A DNA stretch of 50,135 bases, taken from assembly GCA_020722015.1 (NCBI GenBank), contig DYLQ01000010.1, positions 1 to 50,135 on the forward strand, written 5' to 3'. Below the pieces are notes generated by a model. That model searched no databases and was not told the origin of the DNA. It saw nothing but the letters and a program-made list of their open reading frames with translations. Positions 4,184 to 50,135 of the stretch are shown in pieces. Numbering within the stretch: the first letter of the stretch is position 1; every line of letters starts with the position of its first letter. A program made the position numbers and the translations under genes. This DNA comes from Thermotoga sp. (GTDB taxonomy: Bacteria; Thermotogota; Thermotogae; Mesoaciditogales; Mesoaciditogaceae).

Positions 4184-5950
4184 TTAAAGGCTCTGCTCAT
4201 GCGTCAAAGTTTTATTAACTTCTTCTGCCGTCAGTATGATATCTTCAGAAATTCCCAATTTCATCATCTCTTTGGACAATCTCACTATCTGAGGTGCTCT
4301 CAAAGAAGCTTTTTCAAGCACTTCATCGTTTTTGAAAAGATCGAATGTACTTCCGTCGTAGACGATCTTTCCTTGGCTCATGACAACAGATCTTGGGCAG
4401 AATTCCGCGACAAGGCGCATATCATGTGTAATGACTATTATCGTCGTACCGTCTTCATTGAGTTTCTTTAACAATTCCATTATCTCTTTTGACATCTTGT
4501 AATCTTGACCCGTTGTCGGTTCATCCACTATTATTATCTCAGGATGCATCGCAAGTACGCTCGCAACTCCAAGCCTCCTTTTTTGGCCTCTTCCGAGAAA
4601 AAGCGGATCCTCTTTTATTTTGTCGATTAAATTAACGCTTTTCAAAACGGTGTTAACTCTTTCTTTTATCACAGGCTGTGAAACTCTCATGTTTTTAAGT
4701 CCGTAAGCAACCTCATCGTACACAGATCTGTTGAATATTTGATGATCCGGATTTTGAAAGACATACCCCACATGGCGTGGCATATTCCTTCTGTTTTTTA
4801 CGTCATGAAGGTCAAGACCGGCGATATTCACAACACCGTGAAAATTGCCTTCTATGCCTGATAATATCTTTGAAAGAGTGCTCTTGCCGGAACCGTTTTG
4901 ACCTATAAGCGCCAAAAGTTCGTTTTGCCTGACTTCGAACGAAAGCCCTTTCAGAGCCTGTGTTCCGTCTTCATAAGCAAATTTAAGATCTTTGACTTCT
5001 ATCAAAACAGGACTTTCTTCGTCAAAAACTTTATTCTCAGTACTTTTGAAATTCACGCCTTCGGGAATGCTTTCGATGAAAGATTTTATAGTGGTGCATC
5101 TTTTGGAATCATCACCACATTTAAGTTCGGCAATTTCCGGAGCATAGATGTTGTATTTCTCCACAAGATTGATATTCGAATATATTTCATCGGGCTTTCC
5201 CGTGGCCACTATTGTTCCTTCATTTAAAACTATCATTCTATCTGCAAAATCCTGCATGAGTTCGGGATTATGCTCAACAAGTATAACCGTTAAATCTCCG
5301 GCTTCTTTTAATTTTCTTATGGCCTCTATGATCTCTAACTTTCCGGCAGGATCGAGATCGGAAGTCGGCTCATCAAGAATGAGTATTTTAGGGCGCATTG
5401 CTATAAAAGCGGCTATTATAAGTCTCTGTTTTTGACCGCCGGAGAGCTCTGAAGGATGAATTTTATCTGCAATATCGTATATATCGACCATCCCGACACG
5501 ATCAAGGGCCTCTTTTATCCTTGATTCTATTTCCGCCATGCTAAAACTTAAAAATTGAAGTCCCAACGACAATTCTTGTTTAACACTCATTGTCAAAAAC
5601 TGGCTTTCAGGATCTTGCATTACGAGCCCTACCTCAGGTGCCATCACACCTTTTCCGATTATCTCATGCTTCCCATCCGTTTCTTTGACGGCGGTAACAG
5701 TCTCGCCAAAAACTTGAACTGTTCCACTTATATGCTGACGAGGATCTCTTTCGTTAAGTTGCATCTGATGAGGTATAAGACCGGCAATCGAAAAACAAAG
5801 CGAAGTTTTTCCGGCCCCGCTCGGGCCTGTTATTCCGAAAAACTCACCGTCTTTGATGGTAAGATTTATATTTTTAAGAGCAAAATCACTTGCCACACCG
5901 GCAAAATTAGGATATTTCCAATAAAAGTTCTTAATCGTGACCGCATCCAT
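4184..5950 (-). CDS. ECF transporter energy-coupling ATPase, two ATPase domains fused
   Basis: This 588-residue protein fuses the two ATP-binding subunits (EcfA1/EcfA2) of an energy-coupling factor transporter, which power uptake of vitamins or other small nutrients at the membrane. Domain 1 has Walker A GPSGAGKT, Q-loop VMQDPESQF, signature LSGGQKQR and Walker B ILILDEPTSDLD. Domain 2 starts near residue 315 with Walker A GQNGSGKST, Q-loop VFQNPDHQIF and Walker B IIIVDEPTTGQD, but its signature reads LGRGQKRR, a departure from LSGGQ. The ATG at 5950 follows a GAGGTGAT binding site that overlaps the end of ecfT. It is the last gene of a three-gene operon and is convergent with metH. Confidence 0.92.
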   Translation of the reverse strand: MDAVTIKNFYWKYPNFAGVASDFALKNINLTIKDGEFFGITGPSGAGKTSLCFSIAGLIPHQMQLNERDPRQHISGTVQVFGETVTAVKETDGKHEIIGKGVMAPEVGLVMQDPESQFLTMSVKQELSLGLQFLSFSMAEIESRIKEALDRVGMVDIYDIADKIHPSELSGGQKQRLIIAAFIAMRPKILILDEPTSDLDPAGKLEIIEAIRKLKEAGDLTVILVEHNPELMQDFADRMIVLNEGTIVATGKPDEIYSNINLVEKYNIYAPEIAELKCGDDSKRCTTIKSFIESIPEGVNFKSTENKVFDEESPVLIEVKDLKFAYEDGTQALKGLSFEVRQNELLALIGQNGSGKSTLSKILSGIEGNFHGVVNIAGLDLHDVKNRRNMPRHVGYVFQNPDHQIFNRSVYDEVAYGLKNMRVSQPVIKERVNTVLKSVNLIDKIKEDPLFLGRGQKRRLGVASVLAMHPEIIIVDEPTTGQDYKMSKEIMELLKKLNEDGTTIIVITHDMRLVAEFCPRSVVMSQGKIVYDGSTFDLFKNDEVLEKASLRAPQIVRLSKEMMKLGISEDIILTAEEVNKTLTHEQSL

Positions 5951-5955
5951 ATCAA

Positions 5956-6834
5956 TCACCTCATAATTCCCGATATGATCATCAAATTGATAAGGTAAGA
6001 TATTATCAAGACTAAGACGGAAAATGCAAGCAAAACTAAATCTCTTGAATGGAGAGTATCGCTTGCTTTCACAGATGTTACGTGGCCGGCTTTGCTAAAG
6101 CCTCGAGCTTCAAGTGCCGATGCCATATCGACGGATCTTTTTATCATAGCGGCTGTCAGCGGTATTGAAAGCGATATGAAATTTTTAGCGTTTTTGACTA
6201 TGCTTTTACCAGAATTTATACTTGCTCCTCTTGCAAATTGAGCGTGACGTATGGAATCGAAATCACTTTGCATCACATGGAAACTTCTCAATATCACCGA
6301 GATAAAGAAGGCTATCTTGAAAGGAGACTTAACCGCGCTCAGTGATTCTATTATGTCCGAATCTCTTGTGGTCATTATCACGAGCAACGTAAGAAATGCC
6401 ATCGAGGCATACCCTACTATTTTTGTTACGCCCACTTCCAAAGAAAGTGTGGTTATTTTGAATGGGATTCCGTACGGTATCAGTGAAAAAAGTACGTTAT
6501 TTCCCACCTGATTGAATATGAGCCACCATGCAAGCATCACGAGCAATGCGATTGGAAGTATGAGAAGATATGTTCTCACAAGAAACCTCAAAACGTCGGC
6601 ATTTTCCATGAACAAAAGCACAATACCGAGAATTATCAACGCCGAAAATAAATCCGGCGTTGATTCTGTCATAAACCTTATCACGGCAAGAGAAACGATC
6701 ACAAGTATGGCAAATTTTATAATCGCATTTAATTTCGTGAAAACGGAACCGCGTTTCGCGGAAAAAAGCAAAGTCTTTATATATTTTTTTTCGCCGCTTC
6801 TGTTTATCCTTGCCGCTTGAACATCTTCGGCCAT
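5956..6834 (-). CDS. ecfT: ECF transporter transmembrane subunit EcfT
   Basis: This 292-residue membrane protein is the EcfT scaffold that joins the substrate-binding S component to the ATPases. It has several hydrophobic spans between about residues 30 and 150, and both signature Ala-Arg-Gly motifs used by the family to couple to the ATPases: [10 protein letters not shown] and [11 protein letters not shown]. The ATG at 6834 overlaps the TAA of the upstream S-component gene (TAATG) and has AAAGGA upstream. An in-frame ATG at 6846 would add four residues. Order S-T-A in one operon suggests a dedicated (group I type) ECF transporter, not a shared module. Confidence 0.9.
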
Positions 6835-7472
6835 TATGAAATCCATCCTTTGTTCAAAAGACCGTATCTTTCAACTATCGGAGTCAAATATCTGCTCAGG
6901 AAAGGCATTAAAATCAAAACTATCGCATCACCGATTATCCACAACGCTGCACCGAGCCAGTACGCTTTAATAGGTACAAAACCGAGTTCCGTCAGCACCC
7001 ATACGCCCCACATTCCGCCGAATATGTTCGTGATGCCCATAACCCATACCACAAACCAAATAGTTGCGCCGCTTTTGGAAAATATATCGCGTCCAAACGG
7101 ATCAACGCCATGTTTTGCAAGGTATCCCCTGTAAAGGAGGAAAATCAAAAGTGCCGGAACAAGATCGCCTACGCTGAAGAACAAAGACGGAATGATGGGC
7201 AAGCCTGTCAACAGGCCGGCTCCGACAACACTTCCAACCCACGCACCAAGTATGCCCCATATACCCCACCAAAGCGTGAAAACAACGAAAAATGGGTATG
7301 CCCAGTAAAGAAACCCTATGCCAGGTCCGACAACAGGCGTGGCAACGGCGCCAAGCCACGAAAGTAGGATAACAACGGCAATCTGTACGGCATAAAGCAC
7401 GTACTTCGTTGTGGTTATTTTGCCCGGATTCCAGCCCAACGTGTAAACTTTGGACAGATCTTCTTCACTCAT
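6834..7472 (-). CDS. Putative ECF transporter S component, predicted purine uptake
   Basis: This 212-residue protein is almost entirely hydrophobic, with about six membrane spans beginning near residue 25, and is encoded directly before ecfT and ecfA. Size, topology and position fit the substrate-capture (S) component of an ECF transporter. I do not recognise it as a known vitamin-specific family such as RibU, ThiT, BioY or CbiM. Its mRNA leader has a guanine-class purine riboswitch, so the likely cargo is guanine, hypoxanthine, xanthine or a related purine. That is an inference from regulation only. A strong AAGGAGG lies about 7 bases before the ATG at 7472. Confidence 0.75.
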
Positions 7473-7504
7473 AAAAAACCTCCTTAATTAAGATAAGATA
7501 AAAG

Positions 7505-7531
7505 AAAAAAGATCACGTACAATCGTGATCT
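7505..7531 (-). terminator. Riboswitch-controlled intrinsic terminator
   Basis: Read on the minus strand, AGATCACG-attgta-CGTGATCT forms an 8-bp hairpin (7510-7531) followed by six T residues (7505-7510). Its promoter-proximal arm, AGATCAC (7525-7531), can instead pair with GTGATCT (7541-7547), which overlaps the outer base pairs of the riboswitch P1 helix. This is the expression platform of an OFF switch: bound ligand stabilises P1 and frees the terminator. Confidence 0.85.
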
Positions 7532-7544
7532 GATAAACAAAGAT

Positions 7545-7620
7545 CACTTCTTGTAGTCAGACAATTTAAGGTCATCTGGTAGAAACTCTTGAGCCATATT
7601 CCCAAGAATATACAGAAGTG
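7545..7620 (-). ncRNA. Purine riboswitch aptamer, guanine class
   Basis: On the minus strand the 76-nucleotide stretch matches the purine riboswitch consensus. P1 is CACTTCTGTA paired with TACAAGAAGTG (one bulged A). P2 is CTTGGG/CTCAAG closing loop AATATGG. The near-invariant AGTTTCTACC follows, and P3 is CAGAT/GTCTG closing a loop with CCTTAAA, which can make the loop-loop contact. The 3' junction reads TGACTAC; the C at the position equivalent to C74 of the xpt aptamer indicates guanine or hypoxanthine recognition, where adenine switches have U. It lies about 11 bases after the predicted transcription start and in front of a switchable terminator and the ECF operon. Confidence 0.93.
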
Positions 7621-7637
7621 CAAATGAATTTTGATTT

Positions 7638-7664
7638 ATTATATCATAAAAAAAGCTAAGTCAA
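7638..7664 (-). promoter_or_regulatory. Promoter of the ECF transporter operon
   Basis: On the minus strand a -35 TTGACT (7659-7664) precedes a consensus -10 TATAAT (7638-7643). The spacer of 15 is short; using TAATAA at 7636-7641 instead gives 17. Either start places the riboswitch aptamer within about a dozen bases of the 5' end. Confidence 0.6.
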
Positions 7665-7727: not shown

Positions 7728-10700
7728 TTACGGATTGACTGGTTTTGGTGCGGAAACATTTGTGAAGGTCACAGTCACAGGACCTGCAACCGGATTACCA
7801 CCAGCGCTTATGTACGATGCACCTACCGTGATCGTAACCGTGTTTCCAGCAAGCGGTAACACATTAACCGGCGATCCGGATGTCGTCTTAAGACCCCAGA
7901 TATGGAGCAAACCGGTATTATAAGATGTGACAGGAACGAATTCCTGAGATGCCGGATTGGACGTGTAGGTTAAGCCATTGCTCAACTGGAAGGTGACGAT
8001 GCTTGCAGCCACACTCTTGTTGGTTAACGTTGCCATACGTTCGCTGAATCCGAGATCGAAGTAGTAAAAGTTACCTGATTTATACAGCGTGTTGTTAGGC
8101 TGGAGCACAGGTTTCGTGACATCGTAGTAGAACGATGTCGCTGAGCTTGTTGTTCCGCCGTTCAGAGCATAGTCCGTAGCCGAAGCTGTCAGGCTGTACA
8201 ACCCTGTCGTTGAAACGTAAGGCGTGTTATTCAGGTTGAGTGTCAAAGTTGCTGCCGTTATACCACCATTCACAAGTGCGCTGCTTACCACGTTAAGTCC
8301 TGGTTGCGATACAAAGGATCCGCCGGATATGAATTGATACGGATTGCCATTAACGTAGAATGTGGCTGTTTGTATCGGAATACTGTTAGGATCTTTTACA
8401 ACAATGGTCGCGATGTAAGTCGGCGTACCATATTCAAGGTTTATGAAATGATTCATATGATTGTACGGTATCGTTGCTGGATTCGTCTGAAGCGTAACGG
8501 TAACAGTTGGGCTCGCTGTACCAATTACAACTGTCGCAGCTGTCGTGTTAGAGTTGGACAGTTTGTTAAGACCATCTGTTGCCAAAACTGTCAATGTGTA
8601 TTTAGTGTTAGTATGCGTCGCTTTAAATGTCACGTAAGATGCCGGCGTAGAAGTAACTGGTGACGGAGTAAGTGGTGTACCAGAACTTGTGCCAGTAGCA
8701 TACGTGGCTTTAACCGTTAATTCATACCCATAGACAGTAGCAACGACAGTTGGAGTTGCACCCGAATAAACGTAACCGTTTAAAGGTGTAAGTTTTGAAG
8801 TATCTTTGTAGAAGCTCACACTTATCGTTGGTTTTACAGCGTCAACCCAGATTTGTAATGCCGTAGCCTTTTGATTTCCGGCGTTATCGGTTACCGTTGC
8901 CGTCACGGTCCATGTTCCGCTGCTGGTAGGAGCATCCAAAGTAACGGTGTAAGTTCCACTAAGTGTCTGACCGTATAAGTCTGTTGCAGAAACAGTCTTC
9001 AAAGTCGCTTGAGTACCATTCACAACTACGGACTTAATTCCGCTGAGATTGTCCGTCGCTTCAATTGTGAAGGTTACAGGTGTTCCTGCAGCCGCAACGT
9101 ATTTTCCGTAGCTGTATATCGTTCCGGTAGCAGCAGTCAATGTTGCCGTCGGAGCAGTGGTATCGTAAACGAAGACCGTTGAATGTGTGGCTGCTTGATA
9201 CGCCATATCGGTTACAGTTGCCGTATATGTATAAGTGGCATTAGTTGCTGGCAGCGCATATGTCCAAGACTTCGTATACGGATAAGCCGTGTAACTGTTA
9301 GAGACAAAGGTTGCTGAGGATACCACAGTAGATGATGGCTTGCTAAATGTCAACGTTGCGGCAACATCGGACTCGTTGTTGACCGTAAAGCTGACAGTCT
9401 GTGTCGCTTTATTGGTAAATACAAGCGTTGAGGACGGTGTAAATGCAACATTCGGTGCGCCAGCGTTGTTATTTACGACGTAGCCCGTCTTACTGCCGGT
9501 ATTTCCGACTCCGCTCGTTGCCACAAGCTTTATGTTGTACTTGCCATCCGGCAAGGTATTAAGGTTTTTCCACAAGAAATCATAAGACACGCTCGTTGCG
9601 TTGTTCGCAGAGGTTGATCCGATCGTAACCCATGCTCCGTTGTCAGCACCGGTAGCACCAAGTGTCTGATAGGAAAGGGTCAATTGCGAAATTCCAGAAT
9701 ACACATCCGTCGCAGTTCCGAGTATGGTTATCGAAGATGCATCTGCGGTTAAATGCGTAGACGGAAGTTTTACCGTTGGCGTTGAGTTATCTATCTTCAC
9801 AACGTACGGAGCTTCAATCTGCGTTGCCCTTTGATCTGCATTGGTAAGAATTACAACCTTGTACGTCCCGGATGCAGATATTGTGAAGGCATAAGTAGAT
9901 GTGTAATTACCGGTTTGAGATGCAGAAACGGTCGTTCCGTTGTAAAGGTAAACTTTATTCATCGCATATATCCAATTCGGATTAACATTTGCCGTTATCG
10001 TCGCAGATTTAACGTACCCATTCACGGGAGCAGATGGAGTTGTCTCAAGAGAGGTTGTAAAGACATCCTGAATAGGTCTGTACACGTTGACCGTTGCAGG
10101 AGATGTCAAAGCAGTTGCAACGTTGAGAGCAAGATCTTCTGCACTTATCCATGACTTATAGGTGCCTGGCAATAGATTTGCCGTGTTAACAGTTGTCGTC
10201 CACAATCCAGTCGAATTTTGTGTAAGAGAGTACATATTAGTTGTAGCGCCATCCGTTTGAAGATTGAGAGTTACACTGCTAAGATATGGACTTGTCACGC
10301 TTGCCACAACCGTTATGGTTCCGGAGGCAGCATAGGAAACCGGTGAACTTGAAAGTCCGATCAGGTTAGCGTAATGGATGACTGGAGGTATAGCTACCCT
10401 TACAATCGTAAGATTAAGAGTCGAAGAAAGATTTGCGTAATTGACAACCTTTGCCGTGAACGATTCGGTTGCTCCATTCGAAAGACCAGAAACATCCGCC
10501 GTTACAGTGCCATTTTGTGTAAGAGAGAATGGCTGTGTTCCAAGCGTGGCCGATGATGTCATCCAGTATGGATCGTACGCGTAAACCTGGAAGGTTGTCG
10601 GATTGACTCCAACGTAGAGCGTATTTCCACTTGATTGAATGCCTTTGTAGGATGCCCTCAAAACAGGCGTGGCTTTTACAACAACATAAGTCCTTGACTC

Positions 10701-11720
10701 TGAAGCCACACTTCCATCTATGGATTTATCCTTGAACATAAATGTCGTCGATCCGGGAGATGTAAGCGCACTTGCAGGCACGGATATCGAATAGGATTTG
10801 TTGAGAACTGAAACGGCCGTTGCAACGTTCACGTAAGTCGCAAACGGAGTACCGTTTATGAGGAAGCCCTCATACTGAGAGGTGTAATCCGTCGCACCCG
10901 CAGTGAATGAAACGCCACTCAAACCGTTTATGTAATTGGTATTATAAAGCGGCGTTGCGGCACTGAGTGTTACTTTCTGTACTGCCGGATATGTTATGTA
11001 GAAGTTTCCCGGTTCGGAAGAGCCGATAAGTTGGCCTGCGTTTCCGTAGAAATTAACCCAGAAAGTGTGAGGTCCGACATGATTGGCAGAGATGCTGTAA
11101 AGGGCAACAAAACTCTTCTGAACTACGAATGATGTTCCAGCAATGGTGGCTTTGAGCACAGATGATAAGGTTGTTGGAGATGCAGGTATTGGCTGATTAT
11201 CAACGTAAACTGAAACTCCTCCAACCGCATTGGCACCATTACCCACATTCACCGTGAATATAACGGATTGGTTGTTGTTTTGCGCTGGATAGGTGTAAAC
11301 GTAAGGATATGGATTGTTAAGTCTAACAGCGTAGGTTATAGAACCAACTGACGTCAAAGGAGCAACATCAACTGTTTCAGTCGCAGATGCAGTTAAGCCA
11401 TTTTTACCGTACACGGTTATACCCAATGGATATAGACTTTCCGCTATAACGGTGGGTGCCGTGAAGGTAAAGGTTGCAGGATTTGATGTCTTTGTGACGG
11501 TCGATCCTTCAAATGTTGCAACTATTTTCGATATTCCACCGCCACCTCCGGCAGTCACCGCCAAATTAAACGGCTGTCCGGAATAAGCTGTTATAGTAGT
11601 CGGTGAGATGCTGATAAGCGACGGAGGCGTTTTCGGTTGAGGCAAAATACAACTCGATAACACCAACGCTAAAACTATCACCGACATCAAGAGCAGACCC
11701 AGTTTCCCCTTTTTACTCAT
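7728..11720 (-). CDS. Very large Ig-like repeat surface lipoprotein
   Basis: This 1330-residue protein starts with a lipoprotein signal peptide: basic MSKKGK, a hydrophobic core and the lipobox LSSC (cysteine near residue 24). The remainder is rich in Thr, Ser, Ala, Val, Asn and Tyr, with many beta-strand-like segments. Recurring motifs such as YDTTAPTATL, ATVTDNAGN, ATDYALNGG and YYDVTKPVL, about every 80-110 residues, are typical of tandem bacterial Ig-like domains. The C-terminal segment (FSERMAT) resembles an SbsA-like Ig domain. It is probably anchored on the cell surface or outer sheath; its ligand is unknown. The ATG at 11720 is used, though the strong GGAGG is 34 bases upstream across a hairpin. 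A TTG at 11726 is also in frame. Confidence 0.85.
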   Translation of the reverse strand: MSKKGKLGLLLMSVIVLALVLSSCILPQPKTPPSLISISPTTITAYSGQPFNLAVTAGGGGGISKIVATFEGSTVTKTSNPATFTFTAPTVIAESLYPLGITVYGKNGLTASATETVDVAPLTSVGSITYAVRLNNPYPYVYTYPAQNNNQSVIFTVNVGNGANAVGGVSVYVDNQPIPASPTTLSSVLKATIAGTSFVVQKSFVALYSISANHVGPHTFWVNFYGNAGQLIGSSEPGNFYITYPAVQKVTLSAATPLYNTNYINGLSGVSFTAGATDYTSQYEGFLINGTPFATYVNVATAVSVLNKSYSISVPASALTSPGSTTFMFKDKSIDGSVASESRTYVVVKATPVLRASYKGIQSSGNTLYVGVNPTTFQVYAYDPYWMTSSATLGTQPFSLTQNGTVTADVSGLSNGATESFTAKVVNYANLSSTLNLTIVRVAIPPVIHYANLIGLSSSPVSYAASGTITVVASVTSPYLSSVTLNLQTDGATTNMYSLTQNSTGLWTTTVNTANLLPGTYKSWISAEDLALNVATALTSPATVNVYRPIQDVFTTSLETTPSAPVNGYVKSATITANVNPNWIYAMNKVYLYNGTTVSASQTGNYTSTYAFTISASGTYKVVILTNADQRATQIEAPYVVKIDNSTPTVKLPSTHLTADASSITILGTATDVYSGISQLTLSYQTLGATGADNGAWVTIGSTSANNATSVSYDFLWKNLNTLPDGKYNIKLVATSGVGNTGSKTGYVVNNNAGAPNVAFTPSSTLVFTNKATQTVSFTVNNESDVAATLTFSKPSSTVVSSATFVSNSYTAYPYTKSWTYALPATNATYTYTATVTDMAYQAATHSTVFVYDTTAPTATLTAATGTIYSYGKYVAAAGTPVTFTIEATDNLSGIKSVVVNGTQATLKTVSATDLYGQTLSGTYTVTLDAPTSSGTWTVTATVTDNAGNQKATALQIWVDAVKPTISVSFYKDTSKLTPLNGYVYSGATPTVVATVYGYELTVKATYATGTSSGTPLTPSPVTSTPASYVTFKATHTNTKYTLTVLATDGLNKLSNSNTTAATVVIGTASPTVTVTLQTNPATIPYNHMNHFINLEYGTPTYIATIVVKDPNSIPIQTATFYVNGNPYQFISGGSFVSQPGLNVVSSALVNGGITAATLTLNLNNTPYVSTTGLYSLTASATDYALNGGTTSSATSFYYDVTKPVLQPNNTLYKSGNFYYFDLGFSERMATLTNKSVAASIVTFQLSNGLTYTSNPASQEFVPVTSYNTGLLHIWGLKTTSGSPVNVLPLAGNTVTITVGASYISAGGNPVAGPVTVTFTNVSAPKPVNP

Positions 11721-11727
11721 GGGCAAT

Positions 11728-46890: not shown

Positions 46891-48177
46891 ATGATTTACC
46901 AGATATTCGTCGATAGATTCGCAAGTTTAGATCAAAAGTGCAACGTCAAACCGTGGGACTTGCCAGTTGAAGGTGCGGCAAATGAGTTTTATGGCGGAAA
47001 CCTCAAAGGTATAATTTCCAAAATCGATCATATATCCAGTTTGGGTGCAGATGCCATCTACATAACGCCAATTTTCGAGTCAAAAACGTATCACAGATAT
47101 GATATACTTGATTATTTCCAGATAAGTCCCATGGTTGGAGATGAAAGAGATCTCGAGAATTTGATAAAAGCTTTTCATTCAAGGAAAATAAAGATCTTTC
47201 TCGATGGGGTCTTCAACCATGTAAGTTCTGAATCCAAAATGGTTTCGAATATGGGAACGAAGAGAAAATGGAGAGGCTTCGGTGAACTCACAGAATTAGA
47301 CTTAGACAGACCTGATGTGATGAAATTCATTTTAAATGTCGTGGAATATTGGATGAAAAAAGACATAGACGGATTCAGAATCGACTGTGCCAATGATGTG
47401 GGAATGAGCCATCTCGATGAGATCATGAGCAAAATTCATGAATTCGGCGGTCAGATGGTAGGTGAAGTTATGACATACGCAAAAGACTGGTTGTATCACA
47501 TGGATGGTGTGATGAATTACTTTTTCAGGCAATCAACGCTTTTGACGCTGAATAGTGAAATTACGCCAGATGATTACGTTACTTACTTGAATTGGATGAT
47601 AAATGAATATCCTCAAGAAAAATTGCTGAACTCGTGGACGATACTTTCTTCTCACGATACCCCGAGACTTTCCAATGTGCTTCAAAATGAAAAGAAAATT
47701 CGTTTGGCAATTGCCATTCAACATGCCTTTCCTGGAATTCCCATGATTTATTACGGTGAAGAAGTAGGCATGAACGGAGGGCCGGATCCTTTTAACAGAG
47801 CACCAATGAATTGGGAGCAAAAAAGCGAACGGTGCGAATTTTACCAAAAGATGAACAATTTAAGAAAAGAGTTCGATGTACTTTCCAAGGGAAAAACTAA
47901 AATATGGATAAATGGAGATATCCTGTCTATCCTAAGATACGATGAATGGGAGAGATTTGTGCTTTTTGTCGCTAACCCTACTGGCATGACAAACGTTGCA
48001 AATGTTATAATACCATATTCATATGCGTTTGATGGATTGGAGATGAGGGATGTGATCTCAAATCGTATTGTGAAAATCAATTCTGGCTCCATTTTTATCG
48101 ATCTTGAACCGTTTGATTTCACTTTTTTTGTACCAAAGGGTGACATATCAAACTATTCTTTCTTCAAGAAAAGATGA
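46891..48177 (+). CDS. Cytoplasmic GH13 alpha-amylase family glycoside hydrolase
   Basis: This 428-residue enzyme hydrolyses alpha-glucosidic bonds in maltodextrins or related sugars. The GH13 regions are DGVFNHVS (region I), DGFRIDCAND with the Asp nucleophile (II), MVGEVM with the acid/base Glu (III) and LSSHDTPR (IV). It starts directly in the barrel (IYQIFVDRFASL), has no signal peptide and lacks the N-terminal starch-binding domain of neopullulanase-like enzymes. The ATG at 46891 follows GAGGTG. It is divergent from malE, consistent with breakdown of imported maltodextrins. Confidence 0.92.
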   Translation: MIYQIFVDRFASLDQKCNVKPWDLPVEGAANEFYGGNLKGIISKIDHISSLGADAIYITPIFESKTYHRYDILDYFQISPMVGDERDLENLIKAFHSRKIKIFLDGVFNHVSSESKMVSNMGTKRKWRGFGELTELDLDRPDVMKFILNVVEYWMKKDIDGFRIDCANDVGMSHLDEIMSKIHEFGGQMVGEVMTYAKDWLYHMDGVMNYFFRQSTLLTLNSEITPDDYVTYLNWMINEYPQEKLLNSWTILSSHDTPRLSNVLQNEKKIRLAIAIQHAFPGIPMIYYGEEVGMNGGPDPFNRAPMNWEQKSERCEFYQKMNNLRKEFDVLSKGKTKIWINGDILSILRYDEWERFVLFVANPTGMTNVANVIIPYSYAFDGLEMRDVISNRIVKINSGSIFIDLEPFDFTFFVPKGDISNYSFFKKR

Positions 48178-49019
48178 AAATCATAACTGTCGTTGTAACA
48201 TACAACAGATTAAATTGGCTAAAGAAAAACATCGACGCACTTTTATCTCAAACAAGGCGCCCCGATGAGATAATAGTCGTTGACAACGCAAGCACCGATG
48301 ACACATATGAATTTCTGAAGAATTTAGATGGTATTAAATTCAAAAGACTTAACGAAAATATTGGAGGAGCCGGAGGATTTGCTTATGGCTTAGAATGTGC
48401 AATTGACGATGGAGCAGATTGGGTTTGGATGATGGACGATGATGCACTTCCTTATAAAAATGCCCTTGAAGAACTTGAACGTGCTATCTTAGAAAATCAA
48501 AAATCAAATGTGGGCGTTTTTCTCAGCAAATTGGCAAACAAGGATAATTCAAAATCGACAAATAAAATATCAAGGGCTCCGACGGGCACTTTTGTTGGTT
48601 TTACCGTAAAAAAAGAGGTCGTTGAAAAAGTCGGTCTTCCAGATGCAGATTTCTTCATCTATGCCGATGATTACGATTATTCCATGAGAATACAAAGGGC
48701 TGGCTTTAAGATACTGAGAGTATATTCAAGTTTGATAGAACACAAAGATTGGATAAGGCAAAAACGCGTCTTTCGTTTTCCATTTTCGAAACCAAATGTT
48801 CCTCCGTGGAAAACTTACTATCTTTTCAGAAACCCAATTCTTGCAACTAAAAATTCAAAGATAGTCAATTTAGGCGTTAAAATTTACCTTTCAATTGATA
48901 GATACATATGGTCATACGTTTCTCCAGAGGCTAAACCTTACATCTTTAGCGGATATAAAGATGGGAAAAATGGTGTGAAGGGGAAAAAAGTAGATCCCAA
49001 AAAACCTTTATTTTCTTGA
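48174..49019 (+). CDS. Family 2 glycosyltransferase
   Basis: This 281-residue protein is a GT-A fold inverting glycosyltransferase. Motifs: VVTYNRLNWLKKNI at the start, VVDNASTDDTYEFL, NIGGAGGFAYGLE and the metal-binding triad in WMMDDDALP. The NxGGAGGF segment is common in rhamnosyl- and galactofuranosyl-transferase-like members. The acceptor is unknown; surface polysaccharide or glycolipid is plausible. Its ATG overlaps the amylase stop (ATGA), and its 3' end overlaps the convergent dehydrogenase by 12 bases. Confidence 0.9.
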   Translation: MKIITVVVTYNRLNWLKKNIDALLSQTRRPDEIIVVDNASTDDTYEFLKNLDGIKFKRLNENIGGAGGFAYGLECAIDDGADWVWMMDDDALPYKNALEELERAILENQKSNVGVFLSKLANKDNSKSTNKISRAPTGTFVGFTVKKEVVEKVGLPDADFFIYADDYDYSMRIQRAGFKILRVYSSLIEHKDWIRQKRVFRFPFSKPNVPPWKTYYLFRNPILATKNSKIVNLGVKIYLSIDRYIWSYVSPEAKPYIFSGYKDGKNGVKGKKVDPKKPLFS

Positions 49020-49787
49020 AATCTGCCCAATCGCAACAAAATGCGCAGCCGTACTTTTCGGAATAAATCTGAGTGCGAAGGCCGTGAGTTTGTTTACAAA
49101 ACCCGGCAGGATGATTAATTTGCCCTTTTTTAAACCTTTATAACCTATAAGTGCGACTTTTTGAGCACTCATGCTTTTTATACTGAAAGTTTCTGCGCTT
49201 GTAAGGCCGATCCTTTTTTGAAAGTTCGTATCGGTTGGTCCAGGGCATAAAGTTGTCACTGAAACACCCGTACCTTTCAACTCCTCATTTAGCGCTACTG
49301 AAAAGGACAGAACATATGCCTTCGTCGAATAGTAAACGTTCATGTAAGGGCCCGGCGGAAAAGCCGCTAAAGATGCGATGTTAAGAATTTTGCCTTTACC
49401 GTTTTTGACCATTTCCGGCGCAAAAAGACGCGTTAAATGTGTGAGCGCTGTGACATTGACTTGAATCATCTCAAGCGAGGTTTTTAAGTCCGTTTTTATG
49501 AAAGCCCCATAACTACCAAAGCCGGCATTGTTGACAAGCGCATCAATAACGATGGAATTCTTCTTTAATTCGTCAAATATTTCATCGGGCGCTGAAGGGG
49601 AAGAAAGATCTTTGGGTATGATCATCGTTGAGATGCCGAATTCGTTTGACAATTCGTCAGAAACGATTTCAAGCGTTTTTTCATCTCTTGCAACAAGCAC
49701 AAGATCATGACCGTCCTTTGCAAATAATTTTGCCAATTCCTTCCCTATCCCGCCGGATGCACCCGTTATGAGTACAACATCTTTCAT
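49008..49787 (-). CDS. Short-chain dehydrogenase/reductase
   Basis: This 259-residue classical SDR is an NAD(P)(H)-dependent oxidoreductase. It shows the cofactor motif TGASGGIGKELA, NNAGFG, the catalytic Ser in ILNIASLAAF and YxxxK as YYSTK, followed by CPGPTDTNF. The sequence around it (GGIGKELAKLFAKDGHDLVL) resembles the DltE/YqjQ-like group. The substrate is not known. GAGGTGAAC lies before the ATG. It stands alone on the minus strand, convergent with the GT2 gene. Confidence 0.9.
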   Translation of the reverse strand: MKDVVLITGASGGIGKELAKLFAKDGHDLVLVARDEKTLEIVSDELSNEFGISTMIIPKDLSSPSAPDEIFDELKKNSIVIDALVNNAGFGSYGAFIKTDLKTSLEMIQVNVTALTHLTRLFAPEMVKNGKGKILNIASLAAFPPGPYMNVYYSTKAYVLSFSVALNEELKGTGVSVTTLCPGPTDTNFQKRIGLTSAETFSIKSMSAQKVALIGYKGLKKGKLIILPGFVNKLTAFALRFIPKSTAAHFVAIGQISRK

Positions 49788-49805
49788 AGTTCACCTCATT
49801 AAAAG

Positions 49806-49814
49806 ATTATATCA
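49806..49814 (-). promoter_or_regulatory. Promoter of the SDR gene, extended -10
   Basis: On the minus strand TGATATAAT is a full extended -10 (TGn plus TATAAT at 49806-49811). No good -35 is visible 16-18 bases upstream. The start codon is about 20 bases downstream. Confidence 0.6.
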
Positions 49815-49840
49815 CGAAGTTGTGAACTATGAATTATTCT

Positions 49841-49880
49841 CGATCTGATCAAGAATCTCATCCGATAAAGTCAATAAAAT
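49841..49880 (+). repeat. Dispersed palindromic repeat, copy C (degraded)
   Basis: CGATCTGATCAAGAATCTC followed by ATCCGATAAAGTCAA aligns with the end CCTGATCGGGAATCC...GATRAAGTCAAATGAC of copies A and B. The stem is eroded (CGGGAA has become CAAGAA). Confidence 0.55.
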
Positions 49881-49927
49881 GGGAAGTAAGCCTTTTATAC
49901 CAAAGCATGTCCAAAAGTCAAAAGGAA

Positions 49928-50005
49928 TTACTTTGATTTTTCAAGTTCTTCTTCGCGATCGTACAAATTTTCTCTCGACCTTTTCGGCTCGATTGAAAAG
50001 TACAA
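49928..50005 (-). pseudogene. Truncated 5' end of an archaeal-type ATPase gene (probable)
   Basis: On the minus strand, a TTG at 50005 preceded by AAGGGAC opens 25 codons reading MYFSIEPKRSRENLYDREEE and then LEKSK and a stop. The pattern 'YF..KP..RE.LYDREEEL' is the typical N-terminus of archaeal-type P-loop ATPases (PF01637 family), which continue for about 350-450 residues with a Walker A near residue 40. Here the frame stops at once, and no P-loop follows in any frame of the minus strand before the SDR promoter. The match is recalled, not searched. Confidence 0.5.
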
Positions 50006-50016
50006 ATTCTTGTCCC

Positions 50017-50058
50017 TTGAGTAACTCAATGTGGGTTGAGTTACTCAACCCACATTGA
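50017..50058. repeat. 33-base near-perfect palindrome with overlapping 13-base palindromes
   Basis: A 16-base arm (50026-50041, TCAATGTGGGTTGAGT) and its exact complement (50043-50058) surround a single T. Inside and beside it are TTGAGTAACTCAA (50017-50029) and its complement TTGAGTTACTCAA (50036-50048), so two alternative foldings exist. It lies just upstream of the broken ATPase gene start. There is no T tract after it. Confidence 0.8.
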
Positions 50059-50135
50059 TTATGCACCAAATCTTTTTCAATTTACCAAACACGATCCCCG
50101 ACGTTTCCATTCCTTATAGGTACGATAAAAACTCA

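Follow-up and report, generated by a model that had tools for sequence, protein, structure and literature searches.

A guanine-class riboswitch in front of an ECF transporter operon that probably imports purines in Athalassotoga and acidophilic archaea

What does an ECF transporter carry when its S component belongs to an uncharacterised family and its leader contains a purine riboswitch? We asked this of a locus in the window, which is the whole 50,135-nucleotide stretch of DNA that was analysed and that we assign to Athalassotoga. It is likely, in our judgment, that the ECF transporter here imports purines into a purine auxotroph under the control of a guanine OFF-switch, and that the operon is common to bacteria and archaea. 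The features of the locus are given in Table 1. Most of the genomes compared are MAGs, but complete records exist for Athalassotoga saccharophila NAS-01 and Ca. Micrarchaeum A_DKE.

Table 1. Features of the riboswitch leader and the ECF operon, in window coordinates.
Feature	Position	Strand	Basis
Candidate -35 TTGACT, 15-nt spacer	7659-7664	-	Sequence; kept in G001 leader, missing in G002
Extended -10 TGATATAAT	7638-7646	-	Identical in three orthologous leaders
Purine riboswitch aptamer RF00167, guanine type	7534-7635	-	78.9 bits, gathering score 37, E = 1.5e-12
P1 5' strand	7611-7620	-	Covariance model alignment and fold
P2 stem-loop	7587-7607	-	Covariance model alignment
J2/3 GUUUCUAC, invariant ligand-pocket strand	7579-7586	-	Covariance model alignment
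P3 stem-loop	7558-7578	-	Covariance model alignment
Specificity base C, C74 in xpt numbering	7556	-	J3/1 = GACUAC
P1 3' strand; end 7547-7541 doubles as antiterminator 5' arm	7545-7555	-	Covariance model alignment and fold
Predicted antiterminator, 7547-7541 paired with 7531-7525	7525-7547	-	7 contiguous pairs; growing-chain fold
Predicted intrinsic terminator, hairpin 7531-7510 and U-rich tail	7500-7531	-	Fold and terminator scan
Ribosome-binding site AAGGAGG	7479-7485	-	Sequence
S component, 212 aa, orphan family	6834-7472	-	AlphaFold2 and Foldseek; no Pfam or NCBIfam match
EcfT, CbiQ family PF02361	5956-6846	-	68.4 bits, cutoff 25
Fused EcfA-EcfA' ATPase	4184-5959	-	TIGR04520 and TIGR04521 above cutoff, two stretches

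By its sequence, the leader aptamer is a typical guanine-class RNA and a putative binder of guanine or hypoxanthine. The whole window was searched against all Rfam families. The purine model RF00167 matched the minus strand from 7635 to 7534 over its full length (model positions 1-102). The original prediction had named a full purine aptamer within 7505-7664 and suggested this covariance search as a check. The search was passed widely (78.9 against 37 bits), the match runs end to end, and the span was accurate. The J2/3 letters are GUUUCUACC, which is the canonical pocket. The J3/1 letters contain a C at the specificity position, as had been claimed. A C at this position defines the guanine/hypoxanthine subclass of purine riboswitches. 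The aptamer resembles the xpt-pbuX-type guanine riboswitches (RF00167, C74) in its three-way junction, its J2/3 and J3/1 letters and its specificity C. It also resembles them in an antiterminator that sets P1 against the terminator. The RNA shows no difference of note; the gene set behind it, an ECF importer, was not described with this class in the papers found.

The predicted expression platform is mutually exclusive with P1. The 3' strand of P1 (7547-7541) is nearly a copy of the 3' arm of the terminator, so the terminator's 5' arm (7531-7525) has two possible partners. The original prediction had this competing pairing and its overlap with P1 exactly right. It had also named a hairpin and a T run, and both were found. 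The terminator stem contains 8 pairs with a 6-nt loop, and U residues follow it. The 341-base region contained 2 terminators, against 0.1 expected from shuffles. Folds of the growing chain passed from the closed aptamer to the antiterminator and then to the aptamer with the complete terminator. The antiterminator was the minimum-energy state at chain lengths of about 121-127 nt. Competing hairpins are predicted in 3 of 3 Athalassotoga leaders. The two orthologous leaders (L034 and L035) contain the same competing elements in different letters, and their ligand-free full-length fold favours the antiterminator. Two of the three orthologous leaders share the candidate -35 TTGACT, and all three share the -10. 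The standard promoter scan, which covers 16- to 18-nt spacers, did not flag the -35.

This layout is that of a standard OFF-switch, with the direction of switching read from the predicted structures. When guanine or hypoxanthine is scarce, the P1 3' strand would pair with the 5' arm of the terminator, and RNA polymerase would enter the S-T-A genes. With ligand bound, P1 would stay closed, the terminator would form, and transcription would end. Shutdown of the transporter by purine excess, as the original prediction proposed, would be the expected logic, and it would fit the loss of purine synthesis from the genus.

The S-T-A ECF operon extends from 7472 to 4184 downstream of the riboswitch, and its three genes overlap. 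An ECF operon had been predicted at this place, and it was confirmed by a CbiQ-family T component, two ECF ATPase domains and an S-component fold. The sequence family of S is uncharacterised. S has no Pfam or NCBIfam match, its archaeal relatives L041 and L048 have no Pfam match, and neither single-sequence nor profile searches found a relative in the PDB. An AlphaFold2 model was built from 17 window and locus sequences, with a mean pLDDT of 82.5 and a pTM of 0.77. The seven best Foldseek matches in the PDB were all ECF S components (BioY, ThiT, FolT, RibU and others), so the assignment of the modelled S protein to this fold is good. The best match was BioY, with a probability of 1.00, TM scores of 0.57/0.63 and an E-value of 0.019; the E-values are weak, but the ranking is consistent. 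The transporter resembles the Group II-like ECF transporters (BioY/ThiT/FolT/RibU with EcfAA'T) in its S fold, its CbiQ-family T and its two ECF ATPase domains. It differs from them in that its S component lacks a Pfam or NCBIfam model, its ATPases are fused, its own T and A are encoded in one operon, and its probable cargo is purine.

Two other parts of the window were annotated. A gene upstream of the leader (7728-11726, minus strand) encodes a probable secreted protein of 1,332 aa with bacterial Ig-like matches (Big_13 and DUF7743). The terminator that follows it, at 7713-7683, is strong. One CRISPR direct repeat (50103-50132; RF01315, 45.3 bits) lies at the extreme end of the contig. No further copies were found within 48000-50135, and an array probably continues past the contig end.

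Among 103 Thermotogota genomes, S was found in three, all of them Athalassotoga, and each copy lies behind a purine riboswitch. The orthologous riboswitches of the two other genomes scored 84.6 and 81.3 bits and lie upstream of the same operon. Four Athalassotoga genomes were searched; the fourth (G003, 83% complete) contained no ECF S gene. It contains a purine-riboswitch-like element (L138 5622-5723; G003:C12:21621-21722) of 67.9 bits, with an A in place of C74 (GAATAC). This element has a weakened P3 and a terminator but no gene behind it, and it is a decaying or altered orphan.

Relatives of S were also retrieved from archaea. They were present in 15 of 295 genomes of the Micrarchaeota phylum search and 4 of 293 genomes of the Thermoplasmatota phylum search, and the complete A_DKE record carries one. 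Among the genomes searched, relatives of S are limited to Athalassotoga and acidophilic archaea (Micrarchaeota and Thermoplasmatota). No copy was found on a plasmid or viral contig. Where identities to the window were measured, they were 69-76% for S, 42-60% for T and 54-62% for A across archaeal operon copies, so S is the most conserved part of the operon. Control of the archaeal copies by a purine riboswitch was considered and rejected. RF00167 matched none of 12 archaeal loci, and no purine riboswitch was found in 196 Micrarchaeota-phylum genomes.

In trees of S only and of concatenated S-T-A, the branches to Athalassotoga, to L036-L038 and to the remaining archaea meet at an open fork. Monophyly of the archaea within the operon clade is not rejected by the AU test (p = 0.30). 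The deeper S branches (L048, L049, L124, L125 and L126) are all archaeal. The presence of the operon in Athalassotoga and archaea, with a riboswitch in the bacteria only, implies an exchange of the operon between domains, presumably by horizontal transfer.

Athalassotoga seems to be a purine auxotroph, as judged by its missing pur genes. PurC is missing from all four genomes and present in both sister-genus genomes tested. Matches to PurE and PurH were rejected as proof of purine synthesis in the genus. The AIRC matches examined (G000 and G002) are LarB, with 292 and 283 bits, and not PurE. PurH is represented by a truncated paralogue far below cutoff. This paralogue of about 440 aa (L154 on G000:C140 and L155 in G002) lacks the N-terminal part of the model, and it has been kept although purine synthesis seems lost. 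HGPRT is present in Athalassotoga. No NCS2 permease was found in the family. The Micrarchaeota that carry S lack PurE and PurH, and both Thermoplasmatota-type genomes tested contain PurE.

Sister genera keep riboswitch-controlled pur genes. RF00167-class switches in relatives precede purE/purC/purQ/purL operons, guaA and an xpt-like gene, and also NCS2-type permeases and BMP-type ABC operons; these genes were named by reading their sequences. Purine-riboswitch control extends to a BMP-type ABC operon for purine nucleosides in G002 and G003, both Athalassotoga, and to one in G012. RF00167 did not match at the homologous operons of G000 and G001 (L065 and L069 compared with L136 and L137). These BMP-family/NupA-type importers share purine-riboswitch control and the presumed role with the ECF operon. 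They differ in being extracytoplasmic binding-protein ABC systems, and their proteins are unrelated to those of the ECF transporter.

The archaeal neighbourhoods also contain nucleotide metabolism genes. L036-L038, the archaeal group nearest to Athalassotoga, encode S-T-A and then a phosphoribosyltransferase as a fourth operon gene. The nearest solved relatives of the L036 enzyme are the purine phosphoribosyltransferases GPT-2 (E = 2.5e-13) and GPT-1 (E = 2.2e-12), which we take to be from Sulfolobus. It is not a full member of any NCBIfam equivalog. Distant S homologues (L048, L049/L123 and L124) adjoin genes for RpiB, a nucleoside phosphorylase and an amidohydrolase. In L048, the best match of the phosphorylase is 5'-methylthioadenosine phosphorylase 1jds (E = 2.6e-62), and the amidohydrolase belongs to the MTA/SAH or guanine deaminase superfamily. 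These distant Micrarchaeota homologues (L123, L124, L048 and L049) have no T or A gene next to them, which is what one would expect of S components that draw on a shared energising module. L124 also lies near an NCS1-like nucleobase permease.

The cargo, which the original prediction did not name, is probably purines. Three independent lines, namely the riboswitch class, the archaeal neighbours and the auxotrophic need, point to it. The S component would bind 6-oxopurine bases or their nucleosides, and the importer would supply purine salvage via HGPRT in a genus without purine synthesis. Somewhat less firmly, we favour a wider reading. An undescribed ECF S family would import purines (bases or nucleosides), and it would be common to a purine-auxotrophic thermoacidophilic bacterium and to DPANN and Thermoplasmatota archaea of like habitat, with the guanine riboswitch in the bacterium only.

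A genuine riboswitch might instead control an importer of general nucleosides or of a pyrimidine such as thymidine, with purine control as one input. Six Micrarchaeum-group loci have a thymidine kinase gene beside the operon (identity checked for L042), ThyA and DHFR lie near the operon in L133, and a gene that resembles CTP synthase on sequence inspection follows it in L127. The thymidine kinase neighbours could leave room for a broader nucleoside range, including pyrimidine nucleosides. The kinase is, however, encoded on the opposite strand and outside the operon, whereas the in-operon gene of the nearest archaeal group is a purine phosphoribosyltransferase, and the leader is of the guanine type in all three Athalassotoga genomes that carry the operon. 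We consider this reading unlikely. An unrelated vitamin or a deazapurine (queuosine precursor) as cargo has a still smaller chance of being right. It would require a chance rearrangement behind an existing purine riboswitch, which could have been retained as its downstream genes were exchanged. The flanks of the operon in G000 and G002 differ from those in G001, so the locus has moved, and most characterised ECF cargo consists of vitamins, metals or, for QueT/QrtT, queuosine precursors (PMC11130926). Against it, the riboswitch was kept in all three species despite the differing flanks, which argues that riboswitch and operon travel together. The archaeal neighbours point independently to purine salvage, and S matches none of the known S families. 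It is highly improbable that the aptamer is decaying or does not switch and that the operon is no longer regulated. The altered copy of the fourth Athalassotoga genome, with C74 changed to A and no gene behind it, speaks for this reading. The three leaders in front of the operon, in contrast, score 78.9-84.6 bits, have intact pocket letters and conserve the terminator and antiterminator. Purine import under a guanine OFF-switch remains our preferred reading.

We know of no earlier ECF transporter for canonical purines. The open-access literature that we searched described neither an ECF transporter for purines or nucleosides nor a purine riboswitch with an ECF operon, which is weak evidence given the incomplete coverage. 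The closest parallel in function is offered by the ECF S components QueT/QrtT, which serve queuosine precursors (PMC11130926, PMC5372724). They are alike in the ECF import of purine-like bases, but their cargo is 7-deazapurines, and the operon described here has a purine riboswitch, not a preQ1 riboswitch, and purine salvage neighbours.

New here are the probable cargo of an orphan transporter family and the occurrence of its operon in two domains. A routine riboswitch serves as a label that gives a cargo to an uncharacterised transporter family, and the archaeal neighbourhoods agree independently. One transporter operon is found on both sides of the domain boundary, with an RNA switch in the bacteria and none recognised by Rfam in the archaea. 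If the reading is true, canonical purines would join the list of ECF cargo, and a genus without purine synthesis would have its supply route. The import of nucleic-acid building blocks by Micrarchaeota is poorly known. The operon would give these archaea, which also lack PurE, a testable purine-uptake system.
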